A stretch of DNA of 64,000 bases, taken from assembly GCF_000010665.1 (NCBI RefSeq), contig NC_012796.1:992001-1056000 (forward strand), read 5' to 3'. Below the pieces are notes generated by a model. The model did not search any database and was not told the origin of the DNA. It saw only the letters and a program-made list of their open reading frames with translations. The position numbers were made by a program, and so were the translations under genes. This stretch comes from Solidesulfovibrio magneticus RS-1. GTDB lineage: Bacteria > Desulfobacterota > Desulfovibrionia > Desulfovibrionales > Desulfovibrionaceae. Shown one piece after another: positions 23,900-55,228 of this stretch (the stretch's first letter is position 1; each line of letters opens with the position of its first letter).

Positions 23900-23942
23900 G
23901 GGGTTCAGGGGGTCGGAGGTTCAAATCCTCTCATCCCGACCA
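23900..23942 (+). other. tRNA-Pro 3' fragment (attachment-site-like)
   Basis: GGGGGTCGGAGGTTCAAATC and the following CTCTCATCCCGACCA are the variable loop, T-arm and acceptor 3' strand of a tRNA-Pro. The matching 5' half (CGGGATG acceptor strand, D-arm) is missing, so this is not a functional tRNA. A related fragment plus about 75 bp of downstream sequence occurs at 41270-41378. Such 3' ends are left by tRNA-targeting integrases. Confidence 0.75.
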
Positions 23943-23950
23943 GAGATTTC

Positions 23951-23985
23951 AAGGGGTTACGGAGCCAATCCGTAGCCCCTTTTCT
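23951..23985 (+). terminator. tRNA-Pro-type terminator
   Basis: GGGGTTACGGA pairs with TCCGTAGCCCC around GCCAA, followed by TTTTCTC. It is carried along with the tRNA-Pro 3' fragment in both copies. Confidence 0.75.
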
Positions 23986-24101
23986 CGTTGGATAACCGGG
24001 TGGATAACCTATTGGCCTGGGATCCCAGGGGAATGGTTTTCCGGGGCGACCCAATGTCCGAATGTCAGGGGGTCGCCTCCGCGCGATGCCACATGACCCT
24101 A

Positions 24102-36421: not shown

Positions 36422-37204
36422 CTAGCGTCCCAGAAAAACCGCGTCTTCGCCGCCGAGGTAGGCGGCTACCACGGCCGGATCGGCCATGACCGCTTCGGGC
36501 GGGCCTTCGGCCAGCACCCGACCGAAATCCAGGACCACCACCTTGCTGGAGATGTCCATGACCACGCCCATGTCGTGCTCGACGAGCAGCACGGTCATGC
36601 CCCATTCTTCATTGATATCGAGGATATAACGGGCCATGTCCTCGGTTTCCTCAAGATTCATGCCGGCCATGGGTTCATCCAGCAAAATGAGGTCGGATTC
36701 GGCAGCCATGGCTCGGCCGAGTTCCACCCGTTTTTGCACGCCGTAGGGCAGCTTGCCGGCTGGATGGTGGCGGTAGGGCGAAAGCCGCAGAAAATCGATG
36801 ACATCCTCCACCCGGCGGCGGTGGGCGTCCTCGGCCCGGCGGGCCGGCCCGAAGTAGAGGATGGAGGCCAGCAGGCCGTAGTCCATGCGGGCGTGGCGGC
36901 CGACCATGAGATTATCGAGCACCGAAAGGCCCTTAAACAGCGCGATATTTTGAAAGGTGCGCGACAGGCCAAGGCTGGTGCGGGCGTGGGCCGGCACGGC
37001 CAGCAGATCGCGCCCGCCCAGGCTGATCCTCCCGGAGTCCGGGGTGTAGCGGCCGCTTATGCAGTTGAGCATGCTGGTCTTGCCGGCGCCGTTGGGGCCA
37101 ATGAGCGAGACGATGCCGCCTTTGTCCACGGTGAAGCCGACGCCGGTCAGGGCCGCGATGCCCCGGAAGGTCAGGGTGACGTTGTCGATTTCCAGAAAGG
37201 GCAT
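36422..37204 (-). CDS. livG: branched-chain-type ABC transporter ATP-binding protein
   Basis: 260 aa from the ATG at 37204, which overlaps the stop of the CBS-ACT gene (TGATG). Walker A GPNGAGKTSMLNCISGRY, signature LPYGVQKRVELGRAMAAESD, Walker B LILLDEPMAGMNLEE, switch VLLVEHDMGVVMDIS. The signature LPYGVQ is the usual LivG form. Forms a heterodimer with LivF. Confidence 0.93.
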   Translation of the reverse strand: MPFLEIDNVTLTFRGIAALTGVGFTVDKGGIVSLIGPNGAGKTSMLNCISGRYTPDSGRISLGGRDLLAVPAHARTSLGLSRTFQNIALFKGLSVLDNLMVGRHARMDYGLLASILYFGPARRAEDAHRRRVEDVIDFLRLSPYRHHPAGKLPYGVQKRVELGRAMAAESDLILLDEPMAGMNLEETEDMARYILDINEEWGMTVLLVEHDMGVVMDISSKVVVLDFGRVLAEGPPEAVMADPAVVAAYLGGEDAVFLGR

Positions 37205-37863
37205 CAGCTCGTCCACTCCTCTTCAAAGTCGGCGGCGGAAACGAGCTTGTACCCCTTGCGTTCGATGGCCCCGGCCACCAGATACGGATCGTCCACAGCC
37301 AGCCGGATGACCACCATGCGCCGGTCGTTGTGATAAAAGGTGCCTGTGGCGATGATGCTGACGCCAAGATCGTTGATGATGCCGGAGACTTCATGAAGGA
37401 CGCCGGTGCGGTCTTCCACCTCGAAGACAATGCGCGAACCGCCTTGCTTCAGCCCCATTTCCTCGACCAGCACGTCAAGCATGACCGAGCGGGTGATGTA
37501 GCCCACGAGCTTTTGCTGGTCGCCCACCACGGCCAGTCCGGCCAGATTCTTTTGGTGCATGATTTCGGCGGCCTGCTCGATCTCCATTTCCGGATGCACG
37601 GCGATGATGTCCTTGCGCATGATTTTTTGCACGGTGAGCTTGGACAGGAGGTAGAGCGCCTCGTGCTTTTCCAGGGTGGTCATGATGGAGGGCAGGGCCA
37701 GGGCGATGTCTTCCTTGCGCACGTAGCCGAGCAGCTTCCTGTCGTCGTCAACGACAAGAAGCATCCAGAAATCGCTGCCTGTAAGCAGTTTGTCCGCGTC
37801 AAGAACCGGCGTTTGCGGCGTGACTTTTTTGAAGTCCTTGAGCATCTTGAGACCGACGTACAT
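37204..37863 (-). CDS. CBS-domain pair plus ACT domain protein
   Basis: 219 aa from the ATG at 37863 (GGAGG 8 nt upstream). Two CBS motifs (~5-60 and ~75-130; KIMRKDIIAVHPEMEIEQAA, NLAGLAVVGDQQKLVGYITR) bind adenosyl ligands, and a C-terminal ACT domain (~140-212; RIVFEVEDRTGVLHEVSGII) binds amino acids. First gene of the cluster and translationally coupled to livG; probably senses energy state and the transported amino acid or derivative. Confidence 0.88.
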   Translation of the reverse strand: MYVGLKMLKDFKKVTPQTPVLDADKLLTGSDFWMLLVVDDDRKLLGYVRKEDIALALPSIMTTLEKHEALYLLSKLTVQKIMRKDIIAVHPEMEIEQAAEIMHQKNLAGLAVVGDQQKLVGYITRSVMLDVLVEEMGLKQGGSRIVFEVEDRTGVLHEVSGIINDLGVSIIATGTFYHNDRRMVVIRLAVDDPYLVAGAIERKGYKLVSAADFEEEWTS

Positions 37864-38202
37864 AATTCGCCCTCCCATGGAAGGATGCGATGCGTGCGCG
37901 CCTCCGCTGCTGTGCAGGGAAGCTTGGAAAGGAGCCCTGTGCTGATGGTGCTGATGAGAACCGTCGAAAGAAATTTCATTGTTAACGTATTGAACAATAA
38001 AACATGTTATTTCCTTTGTGTGTCTCGGTCAAGGCTGAAACAATGTAGTTGTGTTAGAAACAGTTGGCATGCGTAGCAGTTTGTGCCCATGCTGTGCTTT
38101 CGTCATGGCGCTGTGGTTTCGAAGCGTCCCTGATTCCGCTTTCTGCTCGCTAGTCATTGTCAATATTCTGATTTTTACTAATAAGTTAAGCCAGCCAGTG
38201 CG
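37864..38202. other. upstream region of the liv cluster
   Basis: Probably holds the promoter of the leftward cluster (AT-rich stretch 37965-38030). No gene I can support. Confidence 0.4.
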
Positions 38203-38322: not shown

Positions 38323-38338
38323 CACTGCCGAATCTGCC

Positions 38339-38643
38339 TCGCACACTTCTGGCCGACATGGCTGGCGCGGAGCGGGCGGTTTCAAGCGCGCTTGGACTTT
38401 TGTTTGCTCGTGAGCGGTTTGAGCGAAGCGGTCTGGCGAAGGTGGTGCTGTCGGACGCCGCCTTAGAGGCAACTGCGCCCCTGAAGTACGGGCTTACCCG
38501 TCCTGGCGACTGTTCGGCGGCGGATCGCCGGAATGCAATATCTATCCGGCGAAGGACGGTTTCGTCGCGGTTGCTGCCCTGGAGGCATGTTTCCGTGAGC
38601 GGCTGTTCGCCTAACTCGGCGGGGTGAGTACGGCCGGAGAACT
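38339..38643 (+). pseudogene. CoA-transferase fragment (copy 2, 5'-side piece)
   Basis: Aligns with codons ~150-255 of the gene at 27382 (RTLLADMAGAERAVSSALGL; KVVLSDAALEATAPLKYGLT). A one-base deletion at about 38509 (TGGCGAC for TGGCGGAC) shifts frame. The N-terminal half is absent, replaced by integrase debris. The fragment stops at the IS66 left end; its continuation is at 46255-46362. Confidence 0.85.
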
Positions 38644-38715
38644 GTAACCGGTCAATCAACCCCTTCTTACGCCGCTTGAGTTTTCTGTCATGGTTTATCC
38701 CACAGGAGGGCGACC

Positions 38716-39066
38716 ATGGCAGCGTCATCAGCAGAGCTCAGTTTCGAGAAGGCGGCGTACTGGTCTGAACATATTGAGGCTTGGCATCGTAGCGGCCTGA
38801 GCCAGGGGGCTTACTGCCGGCGGCAGGGTCTTTCCCAAAGTTCCATGGGCTATTGGCGGAAGCGTTTGGAGGCAGCGACTGGCAAGGAGGGCGCGTCCTG
38901 CGTCACCCTCGTTCCCGTGCCTCTGCCGGCGTCGGCCCAGGCGGACATGGCAACCGTGCCGGCACCGATCCTAGTGCACGTGGGCAACGCCTTTCGCATC
39001 GAGATCAGAGGCAACTTCGCCGCGCCGGTGCTGGAAAAGCTTGTCCGCACGCTGACACGGCTATGA
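38716..39066 (+). CDS. tnpA: IS66 accessory protein TnpA
   Basis: 116 aa. AYWSEHIEAWHRSGLSQGAY then CRRQGLSQSSMGYWRKRLEA is the HTH region of IS66 TnpA, needed with TnpB for transposition. GGAGGG lies just before the ATG. Its stop overlaps the tnpB start (ATGA). Confidence 0.95.
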   Translation: MAASSAELSFEKAAYWSEHIEAWHRSGLSQGAYCRRQGLSQSSMGYWRKRLEAATGKEGASCVTLVPVPLPASAQADMATVPAPILVHVGNAFRIEIRGNFAAPVLEKLVRTLTRL

Positions 39067-39416
39067 TGTCGCCGGTAAGCGGCGTCCGGGTTTATTTGGC
39101 TCTGGGAGCCACAGACATGCGCAAGTCCATCGACGGGCTGTCCATCCTGGTTTCACGGCAGCTGCAACTCGATCCGTTTGCCGGTCACCTTTTCGGCTTT
39201 TGCAACCGCAGCCGGACGATCATCAAGCTGCTCTACTGGGATCGCAACGGCTTTTGTCTGTGGCACAAGCGTCTGGAGCGGCATGTGTTTCGCTGGCCAA
39301 CCCGCGAGGCGGAGGTGCTTGCCATTGACTCCCGGCAACTGGCCTGGCTGCTTGATGGTCTCGATCCCCTGGCCGTGACGGGACACTCCCGTCTGGAGTA
39401 TTCGACGCTCTTTTAG
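39063..39416 (+). CDS. tnpB: IS66 accessory protein TnpB (Orf2)
   Basis: 117 aa. VRVYLALGATDMRKSIDGLS, HLFGFCNRSRTIIKLLYWDR and NGFCLWHKRLERHVFRWP are near-invariant in the IS66 Orf2 family. Start overlaps the tnpA stop. Confidence 0.97.
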   Translation: MMSPVSGVRVYLALGATDMRKSIDGLSILVSRQLQLDPFAGHLFGFCNRSRTIIKLLYWDRNGFCLWHKRLERHVFRWPTREAEVLAIDSRQLAWLLDGLDPLAVTGHSRLEYSTLF

Positions 39417-39465
39417 ACAGTATTGCCTTGATTAAATTGAATAATAATGAGAGATTGTTCGGGCC

Positions 39466-41037
39466 GTGGACATCAATTCCCTCCCTGACGACCCTGCCGC
39501 ACTGAAAGCTCTCATTGTCAACATGGCTGCCAGTCAGGCTGACCAGCAAGAGCACATCGTCCAACTTGAGCAGCGCCTTCAGCTCCTGAACCTGATCATT
39601 TACGGCCCGAAGTCCGAGAAAAAGCCCCGTACCGGCCAGGAGCAGCAGCTCTCCCTGTTCGACGAGGCCGAGCAGACTGCGGAGGAGCACAAACCGCAGA
39701 CCTTCGAGGAGGCCTGCGCCCCGGCGAGCACCCGCCGCAAACGCGGCCGTCGCCCCATCCCTGCGGATCTGCCCCGGGTGGAGATCATCCACGACCTGCC
39801 GGAATCGGAGAAGACCTGCCCCTGCGGCGCTGAGCTGGTCCGCATCGGTGAGGAAGTCAGCGAAAAGCTCGACATCGTGCCGGCCAAAATCCAGGTCATC
39901 CGCCACATCCGGCCAAAATACGCCTGCCGTACCTGCGAAGGTGTGGAGGACGATGGGCCGACGGTGAAAACCGCGCCCATGCCACCCCAAATCATCCCCC
40001 AGGGCATCGTGACTCAGGGCCTTTTGGCCCATGTCGCCGTGGCCAAGTATGCCGACGCGCTGCCCCTGTACCGCCAGGAGGATCAGTTCGCTCGCCTGGG
40101 GCTGGACATCTCCCGGGGAACCCTGGCTGGCTGGATGATCCGCGTAGCCAAGTCCTGCGATCCGCTCATCGACATGATCATCGCTGAAATTCGTTCCGGC
40201 CCCATCGTCAACATGGACGAAACCACGGTCCAGGTGCTTGCCGAACCAGGCCGGGCCAACACCACGAAATCATTTATGTGGGTCGCCCGGGGCGGAACAC
40301 CGGGAAAACCGGTCGTCCTGTTTCGCTATCATCCGACCCGGGCCGGCAGCGTGGCTGCGGAAATTCTTGGCGATTTCAAAGGCTATCTGCAGACCGACGG
40401 CTACAGCGGCTATGAGGCCCTGGGCGAACGGGAAGGCCTGCGCCATCTCGGCTGTTTGGCCCATGTCCGGCGCAAGTTCGTCGAGGTCGAGAAGTCCGCT
40501 GGCAAGAAGGCCAAAGGCGGCACGGCCCATGCCGTCCTCGATCTGATCGGCAAACTCTACGGCGTGGAGCACCAAGCCGAAAGGCAACAGCTCAATCCGG
40601 AGCAGATCAAGGTCCTGCGAGCCGAAAAATCCAGGCCGATCCTGGACAAGCTTAAGGCGCTGCTCGATGCACGCGCCGCCACCACCCCGCCCAAGAGTCT
40701 GCTCGGCAAGGCCATTGGCTATGCTATCAAACAGTGGGAGCGGTTGGTCGTCTACCTGGAAGACGGCCGACTGCGTCCGGACAACAACCTGGCCGAAAAC
40801 GCCATCCGCCCCTTTGCCGTGGGCCGCAAAAACTGGCTGTTCTCAGGCCATCCGCGCGGAGCCGACGCCTCGGCCACCATCTACTCCCTCATCGAAACGG
40901 CCAAGGCCAACGGGCTGGAGCCATACCGCTACCTGCGCCACCTCTTCGAGCACTTGCCGGCGGCAACCACTGACGCCCAACGCAAGGCCCTCCTGCCCCA
41001 GTACAGCGATCCTCAAAGCCTCATCATACCTGCCTGA
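39466..41037 (+). CDS. tnpC: IS66 transposase TnpC
   Basis: 523 aa starting with GTG. Leucine-rich coiled N-terminus (DQQEHIVQLEQRLQLLNLII), a CPCGAEL zinc-binding motif, and a DDE domain with VNMDETTVQVL, LQTDGYSGYEAL and NNLAENAIRPFAVGRKNWLF. Full length, so potentially active. Sequence identical in translation to copy B. Confidence 0.97.
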   Translation: MDINSLPDDPAALKALIVNMAASQADQQEHIVQLEQRLQLLNLIIYGPKSEKKPRTGQEQQLSLFDEAEQTAEEHKPQTFEEACAPASTRRKRGRRPIPADLPRVEIIHDLPESEKTCPCGAELVRIGEEVSEKLDIVPAKIQVIRHIRPKYACRTCEGVEDDGPTVKTAPMPPQIIPQGIVTQGLLAHVAVAKYADALPLYRQEDQFARLGLDISRGTLAGWMIRVAKSCDPLIDMIIAEIRSGPIVNMDETTVQVLAEPGRANTTKSFMWVARGGTPGKPVVLFRYHPTRAGSVAAEILGDFKGYLQTDGYSGYEALGEREGLRHLGCLAHVRRKFVEVEKSAGKKAKGGTAHAVLDLIGKLYGVEHQAERQQLNPEQIKVLRAEKSRPILDKLKALLDARAATTPPKSLLGKAIGYAIKQWERLVVYLEDGRLRPDNNLAENAIRPFAVGRKNWLFSGHPRGADASATIYSLIETAKANGLEPYRYLRHLFEHLPAATTDAQRKALLPQYSDPQSLIIPA

Positions 41038-41090
41038 GCTTATCCTGCTTCCTGCTCGCCCTAACAAGACGCGCCTTATTGAGCGCTTAC

Positions 41091-41166
41091 GCTTCTCCAA
41101 AAGGAGGCGATACTCGAGATATATCGCAAGGAAGACCGTAACCAGCCAAATTAATGATATTTTCAT
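41091..41166 (-). pseudogene. small membrane-peptide gene interrupted by IS66 (5' part)
   Basis: ATG at 41166, reading MKISLIWLVTVFLAIYLEYR then LLLEK, where the IS66 right end cuts the frame. The 3' end (LLPMAK, stop) is at 48810-48841 next to the other IS copy. The rejoined frame is 31 codons and is related to 16703-16852. Confidence 0.45.
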
Positions 41167-41291
41167 TAAATTGGCCAACTCCTGGCAAACACTGCGAACG
41201 GCTGCATACCCCGGCTTTTCAGACCGCTGAGAAAGGGGAGGATTACCCTGCAATCCCAGGATGATAGCTTATCCACCCGGTTATCCAACGA

Positions 41292-41325
41292 GAAAAGAGG
41301 CTACGGATTGGCTCCGTAACCCCTT
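41292..41325 (-). terminator. tRNA-Pro-type terminator, second copy
   Basis: On the minus strand GGTTACGGA-GCCAA-TCCGTAGCC, then TCTTTTCTC. Matches the terminator at 23951-23985. Confidence 0.7.
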
Positions 41326-41333
41326 GAAAGAAC

Positions 41334-41378
41334 TGGTCGGGATGAGAGGATTTGAACCTTCGCCCCCTGACCCCCTGG
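41334..41378 (-). other. tRNA-Pro 3' fragment (attachment-site-like), second copy
   Basis: Minus strand: CCAGGGGGTC, then GAAGGTTCAAATCCTCTCAT and CCCGACCA. Same T-arm and acceptor end as 23900-23942, with a small change (AGGGGGC for GGAGG) at the T-stem start. No 5' half. Downstream sequence matches the first copy up to about 41270. Confidence 0.75.
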
Positions 41379-41602
41379 AAACCATCAAAATACTATCTTC
41401 TGTAATCATTGAATAAATTTTTGAATTTCACAACAAATCCGGACGATTTTACGACGTTTCCCGACATGATTGTCGTAAAGGGTGTCGTAAAGCCGGCAAG
41501 CGCTTTGATCCGGTACTTGATGATGAGGCCAGCGGTACATGCACTGCGGCTGCACCTCCGAGTGGACAAGGCCCGGACCTAACGACTGATGATACGGTCA
41601 TG

Positions 41603-42577
41603 TCATGGGGCGGCGCGCATGGGTTCAATCCAATCCACAAGCTGCGCGCCTTTGGACGTAAAGCGCAGGGCAGCCTTGCCAACCAGCAATTCCGTACCGC
41701 CCGTTTTCTCACCATATTCGTTGATATCTGCCTCAGCCACCCCCTGACCGCGCCACTTGATAAATGACATCACCCAGCGAACGCCGAGGCTATTCCCTTT
41801 GTACGGCTCAAAAACAAAGTTCCCGGACCCTTTCGGCGATTCCACAAGGGACAGACCCGCAAAGACTGGCTCGAAAGCCTTCCCGTTCCAGCGAATGCGG
41901 TTAAATGCGCTGACGGAAACATCCGATTGGCCGATTGGCGCCAATATTTCCACCTGCGCGCCGCCGTCGAGGTTGCCGACGAGTTCCGGCCAGGACACGC
42001 CGCTGTGGTGGCAATAAAAAAACAGGGGGGTCGCAGGCCCGCGCACGTCATACACGTCGCCGACAGGCCCCAGCCACAACGTGTCCCCCGATCCAGACAG
42101 CACCCGGATTCTTGCCCCACCGCCAAAGAGGTCGGGAACATCCTCCAAAGCGATAACCCCCTGCCCAGCGTCAGGTCCGAGGTCAGCCTCAAAACGACGC
42201 GGCATCTCCCTGGCACAACGGAATTCTCCCGGATCGTTCTGCGCGGCGATATATTGCTCCACGGGGACCAAGCATTTGACATGCACAACCCCCCGTTTGC
42301 CGTCGTAACGCTCCACCTCGGCCCAGGCATTTTCCAAGCCGAGAATGCGAACCCACTCTCCGGCGTCAAGCGTGCCGAGAATCCTGGCCGTTTTATGGTC
42401 ACGCCCACCCGCCGCACGCAGATTGTTCCCATTATCCACGCTTACCGCCACCTGCCCGGGCTGCAAGAGCTGGCCCCAGGCAATGGTCATAGGCAACAGT
42501 GCTGCTACACAACCCACAGCCAGAAGCAAACGGCGAAACACCGCGCCCGATGCCGCGAAATACGCCATGTGCCCCAT
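41603..42577 (-). CDS. exported SH3b-domain protein
   Basis: 324 aa from the ATG at 42577, with GAGGAGGGG just upstream. Signal peptide/anchor (LLLAVGCVAALLPMTIAWG), then a bacterial SH3-like domain (~38-105: VAVSVDNGNNLRAAGGRDHK, LDAGEWVRILGLENAWAEVE), and a ~200-residue C-terminal domain of unknown type (FEPYKGNSLGVRWVMSFIKW). Probably periplasmic and cell-wall or protein-binding. Lies within the IS66-inverted segment, 70 bp from the membrane-protein gene on the same strand. Confidence 0.75.
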   Translation of the reverse strand: MGHMAYFAASGAVFRRLLLAVGCVAALLPMTIAWGQLLQPGQVAVSVDNGNNLRAAGGRDHKTARILGTLDAGEWVRILGLENAWAEVERYDGKRGVVHVKCLVPVEQYIAAQNDPGEFRCAREMPRRFEADLGPDAGQGVIALEDVPDLFGGGARIRVLSGSGDTLWLGPVGDVYDVRGPATPLFFYCHHSGVSWPELVGNLDGGAQVEILAPIGQSDVSVSAFNRIRWNGKAFEPVFAGLSLVESPKGSGNFVFEPYKGNSLGVRWVMSFIKWRGQGVAEADINEYGEKTGGTELLVGKAALRFTSKGAQLVDWIEPMRAAP

Positions 42578-42647
42578 AGCCCCTCCTCGTTGTTTGGGTG
42601 GTTGCACCGGGCGGCACGTTCTCCTGTCCGGCGTGCCGCGAGTCCGC

Positions 42648-43265
42648 TCAACCGGGGTCCCGCACCGGCCGTACCTTGGACGCGGCCAGGGCAAGCCCCC
42701 TCTCCACCAACTTCTCCACTTCGGCGTAGTTGTCAGGACGACAATACAGCCGGACATGCCGGAACCACTTATCACGTAGACTGATGACCGCAGGTCCTGG
42801 CGAGAAACGCACGCGACGCAATTCAGCGAACTCCAGGCGAGTGTTTTCCTGGGCTCGCGCCAGAAGGCCCGCTCCCGCCACCCCGGGCTTGCCCGCCAGG
42901 AGCCCCAGCAGCATGGCCAGACGGTTTCCCGCTTTAGCCCTGCGGCTGGCCACCAGGGCATTGACCCCGTCCTTGTCGATGACAAAGGCCAATTCCATAC
43001 GGTTGCGAAAAACGATCAGCATAATCACTACAAACAGTACGGTAATACCGGCGCAGACAAGTCCGAAGAGCTGACAAACGCCCCACAACACCCCGAGGTC
43101 CCGGGCGAAAAGGCCGATCAGACAGGCCACCAGCATCATGACGCCATACGTCAACAGCATCCAGCGAGCAAAATCGAAAAGCATGAAGCGGTTGGTAAGC
43201 AGAGGGACGGTGATGTCCCAGGACAACAGCGGCGTTATCACTTCAGATTTGACGATGCGGCTCAT
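42648..43265 (-). CDS. membrane protein of unknown function, 205 aa
   Basis: Start at 43265 with AGGGG upstream. Two central membrane helices (LLTYGVMMLVACLIGLFARD; VCAGITVLFVVIMLIVF), then a PH-like soluble C-terminus (MELAFVIDKDGVNALVASRR; PAVISLRDKWFRHVRLYCRP). The layout of two TM segments plus a PH-like domain resembles YcxB-type proteins. Upstream gene of the SH3b protein, likely one operon. Confidence 0.7.
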   Translation of the reverse strand: MSRIVKSEVITPLLSWDITVPLLTNRFMLFDFARWMLLTYGVMMLVACLIGLFARDLGVLWGVCQLFGLVCAGITVLFVVIMLIVFRNRMELAFVIDKDGVNALVASRRAKAGNRLAMLLGLLAGKPGVAGAGLLARAQENTRLEFAELRRVRFSPGPAVISLRDKWFRHVRLYCRPDNYAEVEKLVERGLALAASKVRPVRDPG

Positions 43266-43722
43266 ACTACCCCTGGCCGGATGGTTATCATGGTGTTGGG
43301 TCGAAAAATACGTATGACCACTTTTTAAAAGAGTGGCAAACTGGACCGATGGCGTCAATGACCGTCAGAGTAATGAATGTTGGCATTCCGACGACCGGCA
43401 TGACATTCCTTAGCCTTGCGGCACAGACGCCCTCTATCCTGTGAATTATTCCAAACAAATTACTTTCATCGCAACAAATCTTGTCTTTTGGTTGAAAACA
43501 CCAAACAAATCATCATCCACAAGCCACTTCAGCTATTTTTACGAAGTACTTCACGAAGGAAACATCTACCATATCGACATGTTGCACAACACCTCACCAT
43601 GCGCGATCAACTTAACAAAACACGTTCTCCGGACGAGGCCATACACCGTAGACAGATAAACCATGATCTTGTAATCAACAACGGCAAGGGATCTTAATCC
43701 AACCTACCCGAGGTATGCGGCC
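43266..43722. other. divergent intergenic region
   Basis: Lies between leftward and rightward gene pairs, so it probably carries two promoters. AT-rich at 43440-43600. Open frames of 72-93 codons occur but have no RBS and no protein-like features. Confidence 0.4.
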
Positions 43723-44523
43723 ATGACGACCAATACGTTGAAAAACATGGTATGGCATACCTCAACCCTTTTGATATATTTCATTCTTTTGTGTCTTGGC
43801 GCACCGGCCGAGGCCGGCACCATTGCGAGCGGTCGCCTGGAATGGACGGCCCTTGGGCTCACCTCATTTGACGCGGGTGGCGAAACATACCCTTTTACCA
43901 TTACAGGGCCAGGCACACTCGTCGTCACGCTCACTATCAGCCCCTATTATGCCAGGGACAACTCCAGCTCTCGAGACAAATTGTTACAGTATGACAACGA
44001 CGGCTGGAAGGCCGTCAAATCCGAATCGTGGTTTGACGACCGCCCCCGTTCGGCCTTTTCGAGTGACCCACAGCCCGATGGTTCCATACGGGTCTATAAA
44101 TCCCGTGTCGAATACCAGATACCTGCACAAACTTTTTCCAGAAAATTCCACCTGATTGAGCCCAAAAAATGTGGCCTTGCCGATTGCAGCCGCCGGGCGG
44201 CGGCAGCGGCTTTTACAGCGGAGTTCATACCCCAGGGCCAAGTCCCAGCCGGCAAATCCGGTACCTCGGCGACTCCTTCCGCGTCCACGGGGCTTGAGCG
44301 GGGGATTGACCGGCCAGGACTGGACCTGCAGTGCGTTTTCCCATCCCCCTCGGCCACAGCCTGCCAAAGCCTGTGCCAAGACACCGATGCATGCATGGCC
44401 TTTACCTGGGTCAAGCCCGGGCATGTCCAACAAGCGCCCTTCAATGGAAATTCCATATGCTGCATGAAAAAAGCCGTGCCCAAGGCCCGTCAGGACGACT
44501 GCTGCGTTTCCGGGGTCAAATAA
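43723..44523 (+). CDS. exported protein with C-terminal PAN/Apple-like domain
   Basis: 266 aa. Signal peptide (LLIYFILLCLGAPAEA), a beta-rich N-terminal domain (~32-175; TGPGTLVVTLTISPYYARDN), a Ser/Thr/Gly linker, and a Cys-rich C-terminus: RPGLDLQCVFPSPSATACQS, LCQDTDACMAFTWVKPG and SICCMKKAVP, spaced like PAN_4 domains. PAN domains bind proteins or glycans outside the membrane. GAGG precedes the ATG. First of three rightward genes. Confidence 0.8.
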   Translation: MTTNTLKNMVWHTSTLLIYFILLCLGAPAEAGTIASGRLEWTALGLTSFDAGGETYPFTITGPGTLVVTLTISPYYARDNSSSRDKLLQYDNDGWKAVKSESWFDDRPRSAFSSDPQPDGSIRVYKSRVEYQIPAQTFSRKFHLIEPKKCGLADCSRRAAAAAFTAEFIPQGQVPAGKSGTSATPSASTGLERGIDRPGLDLQCVFPSPSATACQSLCQDTDACMAFTWVKPGHVQQAPFNGNSICCMKKAVPKARQDDCCVSGVK

Positions 44524-44543
44524 CCGCTTCAAGTGAGCAGCCT

Positions 44544-45455
44544 ATGGCGCGACGCTGTTTGCTGACCAGTCTTTTGCTCGTTTTCGTGACGACCGCGCCG
44601 CTTCGGGCAGAAGTTGCGATCCCCCCGCTGGTCTACACCCTGGGCGACGCGGTGATGTTCAAGACCGGGGGCCAGTCCATAATGCTTGGCCATGGAAGCC
44701 AACCTACCCTCTCGCCGGAAGCACGCCAGGCTGCCTGGGTAGAACATGGCGACGACCCGGCCCAGGCGCGGCTGATGTTGTGCGATATCGCCTCCGGCAA
44801 CGCCAGCATACTGGCCAAGCCCGGCGGGAACCTGCATTCCCCGAGTTTCTCCCCGGACGGAGGGAACGTCATTTTCGTTCGCCGAACTGAAACCGGTCAG
44901 TCTGAATTGTGGTCCGTACGCCCGGGCGAAAAACCGCGAAAGCTGGCCCAGGCCGGCGGTCTAGCCGGCGACGACTTCTTCGAGCCTGTGTTCTCGCTGG
45001 CCGATGGCCGCATTCTCTACCACGACTTGGAATCTCTCTACTCGATGAGCCTAACCGGCCAGAAAAACAACCAAACGCCACTTAAGAACTTCAATCAAGG
45101 GCATACAGGGGCCTTCACCAGCACCGCCCGCTTCATCCCAAGACCTAACTCCACGACACTGGCTTTTTCCATGTCAGTCGAAGGCTCCCCGCTTTTCCGC
45201 AAGAAAGTTCCAGATTTGAGCTCCGCGCTATTTCTCTACGACCCTCAATCCAGAAGCGCCTCGCGACTCACCCCGCATAACATAACTGCCTTTGCCCCAG
45301 CCTGGACAACAGATGGCCAGGCTCTGGTATTCACCGGGTACAGCGACAAGCACGCGGGTACCGCTAGGCCATTTCGAATTTGGATGATTCGACCTGGCCA
45401 GCCTCCCGTGGACATGGGGCCAGGTGAAGATCCTAGGCCGGCCTCTGGTCCTTAA
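44544..45455 (+). CDS. exported TolB/WD40-like beta-propeller protein
   Basis: 303 aa from the ATG at 44544, 20 bp after the PAN gene. Signal peptide (LTSLLLVFVTTAPLRAE), then PD40 blades such as SPSFSPDGGNVIFVRRTETG and APAWTTDGQALVFTGYSDKH. No enzymatic motif. Likely a periplasmic binding propeller working with its neighbours. Confidence 0.8.
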   Translation: MARRCLLTSLLLVFVTTAPLRAEVAIPPLVYTLGDAVMFKTGGQSIMLGHGSQPTLSPEARQAAWVEHGDDPAQARLMLCDIASGNASILAKPGGNLHSPSFSPDGGNVIFVRRTETGQSELWSVRPGEKPRKLAQAGGLAGDDFFEPVFSLADGRILYHDLESLYSMSLTGQKNNQTPLKNFNQGHTGAFTSTARFIPRPNSTTLAFSMSVEGSPLFRKKVPDLSSALFLYDPQSRSASRLTPHNITAFAPAWTTDGQALVFTGYSDKHAGTARPFRIWMIRPGQPPVDMGPGEDPRPASGP

Positions 45456-45479
45456 GCCCTTCCGCGAGGAGAACCGGTC

Positions 45480-46028
45480 ATGCGTATCGTCATAACCGCT
45501 GCCATGGCCTTGCTGCTGGTCTTGGCGACAACAGGAGTGCCCCTGGCTCTGGAACCCGCTGCGGCGACCAAGGCGAAGCTTGACAGGGTGTGTTCGCGGA
45601 CAGCCGAATATGACTGTTACACGAATCACAAATACGGCTATGTGCTGGCTTGGCCCAGACTCATCCTCAAGCCGCTTGGAGAATCGGATGCGGGCGACGG
45701 CCAAGTCTTCACCGCCCTGCGTGGACGAGCCGAGCTTCGGTGCTGGGCTGGCTTCAACGACGTCCTTGAACAAACCATTCCCCAAGCCTTCGCCCAGGCC
45801 CTCAATGAACCCGGCCGCCGAGTGACGTACCAGCACATGGGCAAGGATTTCTTCGTCATTTCGGGCCTGGAAGGTCAGGACATCTTCTACCGAAAAACCC
45901 TACTGGCTCACGACATCCTTGCTTCCTTCGAATTTGTGTACGAACCGTCCTTCAAAGCTCTACTTGATCCAGTAATCAGAGATCTGTCGTCCTCATTCAG
46001 CATCGATCCAGCTTTCGGCTACCAATAA
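45480..46028 (+). CDS. exported hypothetical protein, 182 aa
   Basis: Signal peptide (ITAAMALLLVLATTGVPLAL). Mature part has RVCSRTAEYDCYTNHKYGYV, a Cys pair, and a C-terminal helical region. GAGGAG lies before the ATG, 25 bp after the propeller gene. The layout resembles small lipoprotein-like partners of PsbP type (FEFVYEPSFKALLDPVIRDL near the end), but I cannot assign a family. Confidence 0.7.
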   Translation: MRIVITAAMALLLVLATTGVPLALEPAAATKAKLDRVCSRTAEYDCYTNHKYGYVLAWPRLILKPLGESDAGDGQVFTALRGRAELRCWAGFNDVLEQTIPQAFAQALNEPGRRVTYQHMGKDFFVISGLEGQDIFYRKTLLAHDILASFEFVYEPSFKALLDPVIRDLSSSFSIDPAFGYQ

Positions 46029-46142
46029 GGCCCCTCGACCGCGCGCCGAAGTCGCCAGGATTACCGAACGAGGGAGCGCCCAGACACGGCCGCTTGTGAA
46101 AACGCCATCACGGCAGCAAAGGTAGGCCCAGTTCGGTACCCT

Positions 46143-46220
46143 GAGGTGGTCATTGACCACTGTCACCGCAATGCCGAAGCCGAAAGGTTGGTTGATGCGA
46201 TCTTCGGGAAGGTTGAGTAG
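46143..46220 (+). pseudogene. 3' remnant of the 70-aa gene family
   Basis: Reads VVIDHCHRNAEAERLVDAIF then GKVE and stop, matching the C-terminus of the protein at 65-277 with few changes. The N-terminal two thirds are gone. Similarity to the other locus continues downstream to about 46265. The rest of 46029-46142 has no gene. Confidence 0.75.
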
Positions 46221-46254
46221 ACGATCAACGCCGTCAACGTCTCCGGGCGATACC

Positions 46255-46362
46255 TTACGCCCCCTCTGCGAGACTGACCTTGGCGATGGGAATATCGAGC
46301 TCCTCGCCAAGCCGCTCCCATTCGTCAGCGTTCCTGGACGCGAAGGTCGTGCTGAGTTCTCC
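46255..46362 (-). pseudogene. CoA-transferase fragment (copy 2, 3'-side piece)
   Basis: Reads GELSTTFASRNADEWERLGE then ELDIPIAKVSLAEGA and stop, matching the end of the 27382-28233 frame. It is the continuation of 38339-38643, separated by the IS66 pair and the inversion. Flank AGTTCTCC (46355-46362) is the complement of the GGAGAACT at 38636-38643. Confidence 0.85.
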
Positions 46363-46415
46363 GTAAGCGCTCAATAAGGCGCGTCTTGTTAGGGCGAGCA
46401 GGAAGCAGGATAAGC

Positions 46416-47987
46416 TCAGGCAGGTATGATGAGGCTTTGAGGATCGCTGTACTGGGGCAGGAGGGCCTTGCGTTGGGCGTCAGTGGTTGCCGCCGGCAAG
46501 TGCTCGAAGAGGTGGCGCAGGTAGCGGTATGGCTCCAGCCCGTTGGCCTTGGCCGTTTCGATGAGGGAGTAGATGGTGGCCGAGGCGTCGGCTCCGCGCG
46601 GATGGCCTGAGAACAGCCAGTTTTTGCGGCCCACGGCAAAGGGGCGGATGGCGTTTTCGGCCAGGTTGTTGTCCGGACGCAGTCGGCCGTCTTCCAGGTA
46701 GACGACCAACCGCTCCCACTGTTTGATAGCATAGCCAATGGCCTTGCCGAGCAGACTCTTGGGCGGGGTGGTGGCGGCGCGTGCATCGAGCAGCGCCTTA
46801 AGCTTGTCCAGGATCGGCCTGGATTTTTCGGCTCGCAGGACCTTGATCTGCTCCGGATTGAGCTGTTGCCTTTCGGCTTGGTGCTCCACGCCGTAGAGTT
46901 TGCCGATCAGATCGAGGACGGCATGGGCCGTGCCGCCTTTGGCCTTCTTGCCAGCGGACTTCTCGACCTCGACGAACTTGCGCCGGACATGGGCCAAACA
47001 GCCGAGATGGCGCAGGCCTTCCCGTTCGCCCAGGGCCTCATAGCCGCTGTAGCCGTCGGTCTGCAGATAGCCTTTGAAATCGCCAAGAATTTCCGCAGCC
47101 ACGCTGCCGGCCCGGGTCGGATGATAGCGAAACAGGACGACCGGTTTTCCCGGTGTTCCGCCCCGGGCGACCCACATAAATGATTTCGTGGTGTTGGCCC
47201 GGCCTGGTTCGGCAAGCACCTGGACCGTGGTTTCGTCCATGTTGACGATGGGGCCGGAACGAATTTCAGCGATGATCATGTCGATGAGCGGATCGCAGGA
47301 CTTGGCTACGCGGATCATCCAGCCAGCCAGGGTTCCCCGGGAGATGTCCAGCCCCAGGCGAGCGAACTGATCCTCCTGGCGGTACAGGGGCAGCGCGTCG
47401 GCATACTTGGCCACGGCGACATGGGCCAAAAGGCCCTGAGTCACGATGCCCTGGGGGATGATTTGGGGTGGCATGGGCGCGGTTTTCACCGTCGGCCCAT
47501 CGTCCTCCACACCTTCGCAGGTACGGCAGGCGTATTTTGGCCGGATGTGGCGGATGACCTGGATTTTGGCCGGCACGATGTCGAGCTTTTCGCTGACTTC
47601 CTCACCGATGCGGACCAGCTCAGCGCCGCAGGGGCAGGTCTTCTCCGATTCCGGCAGGTCGTGGATGATCTCCACCCGGGGCAGATCCGCAGGGATGGGG
47701 CGACGGCCGCGTTTGCGGCGGGTGCTCGCCGGGGCGCAGGCCTCCTCGAAGGTCTGCGGTTTGTGCTCCTCCGCAGTCTGCTCGGCCTCGTCGAACAGGG
47801 AGAGCTGCTGCTCCTGGCCGGTACGGGGCTTTTTCTCGGACTTCGGGCCGTAAATGATCAGGTTCAGGAGCTGAAGGCGCTGCTCAAGTTGGACGATGTG
47901 CTCTTGCTGGTCAGCCTGACTGGCAGCCATGTTGACAATGAGAGCTTTCAGTGCGGCAGGGTCGTCAGGGAGGGAATTGATGTCCAC
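46416..47987 (-). CDS. tnpC: IS66 transposase TnpC (copy B)
   Basis: 523 aa, identical in translation to 39466-41037, with all DDE motifs intact (VNMDETTVQVL, LQTDGYSGYEAL, NLAENAIRPF). GTG start. Confidence 0.97.
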   Translation of the reverse strand: MDINSLPDDPAALKALIVNMAASQADQQEHIVQLEQRLQLLNLIIYGPKSEKKPRTGQEQQLSLFDEAEQTAEEHKPQTFEEACAPASTRRKRGRRPIPADLPRVEIIHDLPESEKTCPCGAELVRIGEEVSEKLDIVPAKIQVIRHIRPKYACRTCEGVEDDGPTVKTAPMPPQIIPQGIVTQGLLAHVAVAKYADALPLYRQEDQFARLGLDISRGTLAGWMIRVAKSCDPLIDMIIAEIRSGPIVNMDETTVQVLAEPGRANTTKSFMWVARGGTPGKPVVLFRYHPTRAGSVAAEILGDFKGYLQTDGYSGYEALGEREGLRHLGCLAHVRRKFVEVEKSAGKKAKGGTAHAVLDLIGKLYGVEHQAERQQLNPEQIKVLRAEKSRPILDKLKALLDARAATTPPKSLLGKAIGYAIKQWERLVVYLEDGRLRPDNNLAENAIRPFAVGRKNWLFSGHPRGADASATIYSLIETAKANGLEPYRYLRHLFEHLPAATTDAQRKALLPQYSDPQSLIIPA

Positions 47988-48036
47988 GGCCCGAACAATC
48001 TCTCATTATTATTCAATTTAATCAAGGCAATACTGT

Positions 48037-48390
48037 CTAAAAGAGCGTCGAATACTCCAGACGGGAGTGTCCCGTCACGGCCAGGGGATCGAGACCATCA
48101 AGCAGCCAGGCCAGTTGCCGGGAGTCAATGGCAAGCACCTCCGCCTCGCGGGTTGGCCAGCGAAACACATGCCGCTCCAGACGCTTGTGCCACAGACAAA
48201 AGCCGTTGCGATCCCAGTAGAGCAGCTTGATGATCGTCCGGCTGCGGTTGCAAAAGCCGAAAAGGTGACCGGCAAACGGATCGAGTTGCAGCTGCCGTGA
48301 AACCAGGATGGACAGCCCGTCGATGGACTTGCGCATGTCTGTGGCTCCCAGAGCCAAATAAACCCGGACGCCGCTTACCGGCGACATCAT
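48037..48390 (-). CDS. tnpB: IS66 accessory protein TnpB (copy B)
   Basis: 117 aa, identical in translation to 39063-39416 (LALGATDMRKSIDGLS; FCNRSRTIIKLLYWDRNG). ATG overlaps the tnpA stop. Confidence 0.97.
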   Translation of the reverse strand: MMSPVSGVRVYLALGATDMRKSIDGLSILVSRQLQLDPFAGHLFGFCNRSRTIIKLLYWDRNGFCLWHKRLERHVFRWPTREAEVLAIDSRQLAWLLDGLDPLAVTGHSRLEYSTLF

Positions 48391-48737
48391 AGCCGTGTCA
48401 GCGTGCGGACAAGCTTTTCCAGCACCGGCGCGGCGAAGTTGCCTCTGATCTCGATGCGAAAGGCGTTGCCCACGTGCACTAGGATCGGTGCCGGCACGGT
48501 TGCCATGTCCGCCTGGGCCGACGCCGGCAGAGGCACGGGAACGAGGGTGACGCAGGACGCGCCCTCCTTGCCAGTCGCTGCCTCCAAACGCTTCCGCCAA
48601 TAGCCCATGGAACTTTGGGAAAGACCCTGCCGCCGGCAGTAAGCCCCCTGGCTCAGGCCGCTACGATGCCAAGCCTCAATATGTTCAGACCAGTACGCCG
48701 CCTTCTCGAAACTGAGCTCTGCTGATGACGCTGCCAT
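48387..48737 (-). CDS. tnpA: IS66 accessory protein TnpA (copy B)
   Basis: 116 aa, identical in translation to 38716-39066, with the same HTH region and GGAGGG RBS. Confidence 0.95.
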   Translation of the reverse strand: MAASSAELSFEKAAYWSEHIEAWHRSGLSQGAYCRRQGLSQSSMGYWRKRLEAATGKEGASCVTLVPVPLPASAQADMATVPAPILVHVGNAFRIEIRGNFAAPVLEKLVRTLTRL

Positions 48738-48809
48738 GGTCGCCCTCCTGTGGGATAAACCATGACAGAAAACTCAAGCGGCGTAAGAAGGGGTTGATTG
48801 ACCGGTTAC

Positions 48810-48841
48810 TTTTGGAGAAGCTTCTACCCATGGCAAAGTGA
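48810..48841 (+). pseudogene. 3' end of the IS66-interrupted small membrane-peptide gene
   Basis: Reads (L)LEKLLPMAK and TGA. Joined to the complement of 41103-41166 it restores one continuous frame. Shares 12 bp with the flank of copy A. Confidence 0.45.
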
Positions 48842-48855
48842 ACGGGCCATGGTCT

Positions 48856-54954
<6,099 letters not shown>

Positions 54955-55228
54955 CGCTGGAGGCGTTTCGTCTATCCCGAGGCGCCATTAAGAATGAACG
55001 TGTCTGGCCTTCGATCTCGAATTGTCCATGCTAAAGAAGCGTATTGTTCTCGACATCTTTGTGGTCCATGGCGTTTATTTGCATGAAGAACGTGGCGTTG
55101 AAGACGTAGAGGACGGTCTCGACGGCTGGAAGGGGAGCTTGCGAGGTCATGAAGCAACAAGTCGTTGTATCAACGGCGAGGGTCTTACCTTTTCGCCTTA
55201 AGTGTTGCGCTACGGCAATGTTTTATTT

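Follow-up and report, generated by a model that had tools for sequence, protein, structure and literature searches.

Evidence for inversion of a 5.3-kb segment between two identical IS66-family elements in Solidesulfovibrio magneticus RS-1

The genome of Solidesulfovibrio magneticus RS-1 (G000) comprises three contigs, with a chromosome of 5,248,049 bases, from which we analyzed a stretch of 64,000 nucleotides (positions 992001-1056000, termed the window). It contains two copies of an insertion sequence (IS) of the IS66 family that enclose a segment of 5272 bp (41091-46362). Copy A (38644-41090) lies on the forward strand and carries tnpA (38716-39066), tnpB (39063-39416) and the transposase gene tnpC (39466-41037); copy B (46363-48809) lies on the reverse strand, inverted relative to copy A. 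The two copies have 0 differences over 2447 bp each. An earlier note on this DNA, made from the letters alone, had described them as an inverted pair of 2447-bp copies and proposed that recombination between them had turned the segment over; its coordinates for the copies and their flanks are exact. The family assignment is based on a tnpB and a DDE transposase (tnpC) of IS66 type (PF05717, PF03050, PF13005, PF13007 and PF13817), with matches of copy A to TnpB_IS66 at 2.6e-39 and to DDE_Tnp_IS66 at 4.1e-101. The first open reading frame (ORF) of copy A has no Pfam match at E 0.01, and its designation as tnpA follows from the gene order. In total, RS-1 possesses six identical full-length copies of this element, in addition to several diverged or partial ones, and no full-length copy is present among the matches listed outside its own genome.

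The flanks of copies A and B are reciprocally exchanged. Read in the orientation of the IS, copy A is arranged as GGAGAACT-IS-GCTTCTCCAAAA and copy B as GCTTCTCCAAAA-IS-GGAGAACT. The 8-bp GGAGAACT sits left of copy A as the outer half of target duplication 1 (38636-38643, forward strand), and its inner half now adjoins copy B (46355-46362, reverse strand). The 12-bp GCTTCTCCAAAA now adjoins copy A as the inner half of target duplication 2 (41091-41102, forward strand), with its outer half on the far side of copy B (48810-48821, reverse strand). Each sequence is common to both copies, and neither is repeated within one copy. For the six identical copies on the chromosome, we compared all left flanks with all right flanks, using the bases directly at the IS ends; four of the 36 cells show matches of at least 8 bases, and the other 32 of at most 2. 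These four cells are L001 with itself (8), the left flank of L003 with the right flank of L004 (8), A-left with B-right (8) and B-left with A-right (12). As chance would give only 0.0005 8-base matches over the whole matrix, a chance match of short flanks was ruled out. Inverted copies whose target duplications have been swapped reciprocally, as in this pair, are a feature of IS-bounded inversions.

The second duplication is a true 12-mer. A plain 8-bp duplication was considered at this site and rejected, as neither GCTTCTCC nor CTCCAAAA fits both sides and no 8-bp register does. The swap of flanks in the earlier note is borne out by the matrix, with one duplication of 12 bp rather than 8. All other recognizable duplications of this IS in the genome are 8 bp long (L001, the outer flanks of L003/L004, L029 and L030, the last judged by eye); in this survey, which left out the partial copies L031 and L032, the copies L002, L007 and L008 have no matched duplication. 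The copies L003 (G000:C2 3070522-3072968) and L004 (3037636-3040082) are identical and direct, lie ~33 kb apart, and share the 8-bp duplication GTTTGTCG (IS orientation) on their outer sides only, the pattern that a composite transposon inserted as a unit would leave. In L030 (G000:C3 5849-9726, on a 58.7-kb contig), the IS66 element is interrupted after about position 1760 by an insertion of ~1.45 kb, and the outer flanks are both AGAGCAAC, an intact 8-bp duplication.

Copy A interrupts, at 38643, the decayed remnant of a class III (CaiB-like) coenzyme A (CoA)-transferase gene, the first part of which occupies 38327-38643 on the forward strand. The second part (46150-46362, reverse strand) lies at the far end of the segment, where the inversion would have moved it. 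Relatives were sought in 13 other genomes of the genus, with up to five candidates per genome scored in the initial locus search; matches below 55 bits were dropped in the locus comparison, and those below 90 bits in the wider flank comparisons. The first part shares 86-90% identity with paralogs upstream of the window, at 27.8-28.2 kb of the window and in G008, and 81% with a paralog in G005, and the second part shares 85-86% with paralogs in its own genome and G008. On the paralogs upstream of the window and in G008, the matched halves have 8 bases in common, as many as the duplication is long; the overlap is 9 bases in a second comparison, in which the alignment extends one base into the IS. 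These paralogs differ from GGAGAACT at one of its 8 positions. We then removed the IS and one copy of the duplication by script and aligned the rejoined remnant to its paralogs. Over 523 bp, it is 88.0% identical to an uninterrupted paralog in G008 and 87.2% identical to one in its own genome (992 kb); the join is free of gaps, and the single gap lies far from it. It also crosses the join against the 28-kb paralog (400 bp, 85.5%) and the G005 paralog (421 bp, 81.0%).

The paralogous ORF at 27382-28005 matches Pfam CoA_transf_3 at 2e-37, covering only profile positions 1-204 of 366. The remnant itself is truncated, lacks a base that two paralogs have, and carries a stop just before the insertion site. 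Because it is decayed, unflipping the segment would restore no working gene. Of the restored CoA-transferase frame in the earlier note, what holds is that the rejoined halves align without a gap at the join, but in a decayed copy whose frame is continuous only locally. Copies of this region occur three times within 40 kb (G000 ~991.6-992.1 kb, and 27.8-28.2 kb and 38.3-38.6 kb of the window), of which at least the third is decayed. They lie near a gene for a branched-chain amino acid transporter and a gene that, judged by eye, is acyl-CoA-ligase-like.

A relative that lacks the IS provides the order from which the present one appears to derive. The chromosomal left flank, up to ~38.1-38.3 kb, is present in two of the 13 genomes (G005 and G008), which also match the CoA-transferase part at another place; the remaining genomes have no match to this flank or matches of at most 69 bases. 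In G008, other DNA adjoins the left flank. By contrast, G005 is the only one of the 13 genomes in which matches to the segment were seen beside the left flank, among the candidates scored. Its left flank corresponds to 36422-38130 (92.8%), accompanied by three pieces of the segment at 45454-45321 (73%, 134 columns), 45029-44878 (89%, 152 columns) and 42594-41602 (83%, 993 columns), which are on the opposite strand and in reverse order relative to the window. After the segment was turned over by script, all listed matches at this G005 locus (L039) became colinear on one strand. No IS66 was found in the 20 kb fetched from the locus (best IS match 14 bases, E 0.5); G005 carries IS66 relatives elsewhere in its genome. 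An IS-free relative with the segment in its present orientation would have spoken against an inversion, as the earlier note pointed out; G005 is IS-free and has the unflipped order, which favors one. Such a locus, without the IS and in the other orientation, is a further feature of IS-bounded inversions. G005 holds parts of the segment only, the smallest at 73% identity, and as its next 20 kb contain no match of at least 90 bits to the window, it does not cover the right side. Altogether, the flanks, the split remnant and G005 support the view that 41091-46362 is turned around relative to the ancestral order and that the breakpoints coincide with the IS66 copies.

At the right junction, the first part of a 31-codon frame (MKISLIWLVT...) runs along 41091-41166 on the reverse strand and, from its sequence only, would continue at 48822-48841 on the forward strand if the segment were unflipped. 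A search of 14 genomes with the peptide returned its own two halves and, in four places, weak partial hits with E-values of 0.17 to 2.2. The small peptide frame that the earlier note had counted as restored would indeed be continuous, but it has no convincing relative and carries little weight; we regard it as weak evidence for the inversion. Within the genus, the right flank (48810-55200) matches homologous sensor genes, best in G001 (72-77%), among the candidates listed (up to 21 scored per genome). The 30 kb around the sensor match in G001 contain no other match of at least 90 bits to the window, its preceding 20 kb or its following 10 kb.

A weaker sign of the inversion is provided by a 134-bp stretch (41242-41375) that has two more copies, at 23900-24034 of the window and at G000:C2 987256-987389, both on the opposite strand; unflipping the segment would co-orient all three. 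This repeat recurs, whole or partial, in many relatives, and one end resembles, by eye, a tRNA 3' fragment with CCA. ARAGORN found no tRNA in the window, and Rfam (E up to 0.5, 23000-49000) gave no match at 41242-41375. The other copy in the window has an Rfam match at 23940-23988 to BjrC68, with 20.1 bits against a cut-off of 39 (E 0.43). Past integrative elements may have used the repeat as an attachment site.

The segment carries five genes that, judged by eye, probably encode four exported proteins and one membrane protein. On the reverse strand, the gene at 41603-42568 (scanned from 42565; start codon not settled) probably encodes an exported protein that matches SH3_3 weakly (26.2 bits against a cut-off of 27) and has homologues in G005, G010 and G012. 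Also on this strand is the gene of a probable membrane protein with no Pfam family (42648-43265, scanned from 43268; start codon not settled), whose membrane spans were assigned by eye and which has a homologue in G012. The remaining three, on the forward strand, probably encode exported proteins: one with a PAN domain (43723-44523; PAN_4, 8.7e-10), a WD40-like (PD40) β-propeller protein (44544-45455; PD40, 1.5e-9) with homologues in G008, G006 and G012 and fragments in G005, and one with no Pfam family (45480-46028), which has homologues in G008 and G012 and a weak 73-residue match in G006. Both inner boundaries of the segment are the same IS66 end, and the adjoining 2.4 kb are identical in either orientation. 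Since the same end faces the segment on both sides, an effect on gene expression, and hence a functional consequence of the inversion, appears unlikely. A regulatory switch with an invertible promoter was judged unlikely for the same reason. The insertions hit one gene remnant and, at best, one very small frame.

How did this arrangement arise? On balance, we favor, at slightly better than even, a history in which two IS66 copies were inserted and homologous recombination then inverted the segment between them. In this model, two elements would have inserted in opposite orientation, one into the CoA-transferase remnant with the 8-bp duplication GGAGAACT and the other ~5.3 kb away with the 12-bp duplication GCTTCTCCAAAA. 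RecA-type recombination between the identical 2447-bp copies would then invert the intervening DNA and divide each duplication between the two copies; a substrate for turning the segment back would still exist. We infer that the chromosome itself, and not only its assembly, has the flipped order, and that homologous recombination is responsible. Several points weigh against this history. The right-hand junction, as an empty site, was found in no relative, so that it rests on the 12-bp duplication. A duplication of 12 bp at one site is unusual for IS66 under either a homologous or a replicative model. A replicative inversion in one step, or an assembly with the segment mis-oriented, predicts the flank pattern equally well. 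The reversal with breakpoints at IS66 claimed in the earlier note is upheld by the flank matrix, the split paralog and G005, but the flank swap alone does not establish homologous recombination as its mechanism. In a simulation of six random insertions, with thresholds chosen after seeing the data, the closest pair was this tight in 4.4% and three pairs were this tight in 0.008%, which favors local transposition over independent insertion. For RS-1, a low frequency of homologous recombination is suspected and three partial deletions of the magnetosome island are not bordered by repeats (PMC4287615, in the text covered), and the authors of a comparable study in Agrobacterium could not test recA (PMC6778807, in the text covered).

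Alternatively, a single IS66 could have attacked a target on the opposite strand ~5.3 kb away by replicative intramolecular transposition, copying itself, duplicating the target in inverted form and inverting the DNA between in one step. We consider this possible but rather unlikely. The same product, two inverted copies that each have one original and one target flank, is described for IS6-family elements (PMC7986276, as far as covered), and one IS66-family element is reported to move by copy-and-paste in a source that, in the part covered, regards the mechanism of the family as insufficiently characterized (PMC12898284). The six identical copies also form three pairs that, by the same post hoc thresholds, are much tighter than random placement would give, which fits this model. 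However, the source on the copy-and-paste element sets that element, of the ISBst12 group, apart from other members of IS66. The other two identical pairs are direct, with L003/L004 resembling a composite transposon. Even if replicative transposition made the pair, homologous flipping could follow. No close strain was found that carries just one of the two elements at this locus. That a tnpABC-type IS66 generated copies A and B in one replicative step, with a duplication of 12 rather than 8 bp, is a doubtful proposition; if true, it would imply, together with the tight pairing, local copy-and-paste movement of IS66 and inversions produced by the element itself. An assembly error is less likely still. 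If the chromosome had two ordinary insertions with matched duplications and the 5.3-kb segment had been put in the wrong way round between their inverted repeats, the flanks, the split gene and the reversal relative to G005 would look exactly as they do. A resequencing of RS-1 used 50-base single-end reads unable to cross the IS (PMC4287615, in the text covered); on the other hand, the assembly was closed to three contigs, so the repeats were resolved somehow. Inverted repeats of 2447 bp that match perfectly and lie 5.3 kb apart make a good recombination substrate, and both orientations might coexist in culture as a reversible flip-flop, with the deposited sequence being one of them. The spontaneous loss of the IS66-bounded magnetosome island would agree with such switching, but the suspected low recombination frequency counts against it (both PMC4287615, in part), and we consider it very improbable.

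Two of the six identical copies, 4605372-4607818 and 4689726-4692172, lie as direct repeats at either border of the RS-1 magnetosome island, for which the coordinates 4607747-4689778 are given (PMC4287615). The portion of that paper covered here also states that two other IS66 pairs share 100% identity, and reports a 94% IS66 copy inside the island, which we likewise see at 4675273. Of the two border copies, L001 has a normal 8-bp duplication, whereas L002 (G000:C2 4605372-4607818) has no matching one and might have arisen through an earlier rearrangement. In the screen for non-magnetic mutants, ~90% were island deletions, which were also obtained without mutagenesis (PMC4287615, as covered). 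Such deletions indicate that DNA bounded by identical IS66 copies does rearrange, and as identical direct copies flank a naturally lost island, recombination between A and B is plausible. In the text covered, the breakpoints of these deletions were not mapped to IS66 and RecA dependence was not reported; the same paper mentions the identical pairs, and the word 'inversion' is absent from its main text. Among the papers listed from open sources, judged by titles or the starts of abstracts, none deals with this RS-1 inversion. The printed orientation of the locus needs checking before its gene order is interpreted.

Compared to known systems, as described in the portions of the three papers covered here, the present locus resembles the loss of the RS-1 island in sharing the strain, the 100% identical IS66 and the rearrangement of IS66-bounded DNA (PMC4287615). 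They differ in that the island has direct repeats and its 82-kb deletion was observed in culture, whereas here the repeats are inverted and the inversion is deduced from sequence. In Agrobacterium pAt15955, an IS66-bounded 270-kb deletion with exchanged 8-bp flanks was ascribed to homologous recombination (PMC6778807). In both cases, exchanged flanking duplications are taken as a sign of homologous recombination between IS66 copies; however, the pAt15955 deletion involves direct repeats, both of which were needed by experiment, whereas our pair is inverted and known from its sequence. The end product and flank pattern are also identical to those of replicative inversions by IS6/IS26, which belong to another IS family and are given a replicative route in a review (PMC7986276). 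Inversion between paired IS is an ordinary, known kind of rearrangement, of which the present locus is a new instance and no new mechanism is indicated; it is slightly odd in its 12-bp duplication and in the way the identical copies are paired. Altogether, the locus is a clean case of inversion between IS copies, which a relative confirms, in a bacterium that serves as a model for magnetotaxis and has the same IS66 at the borders of its magnetosome island. It supports the view that these identical IS66 copies rearrange the RS-1 chromosome.

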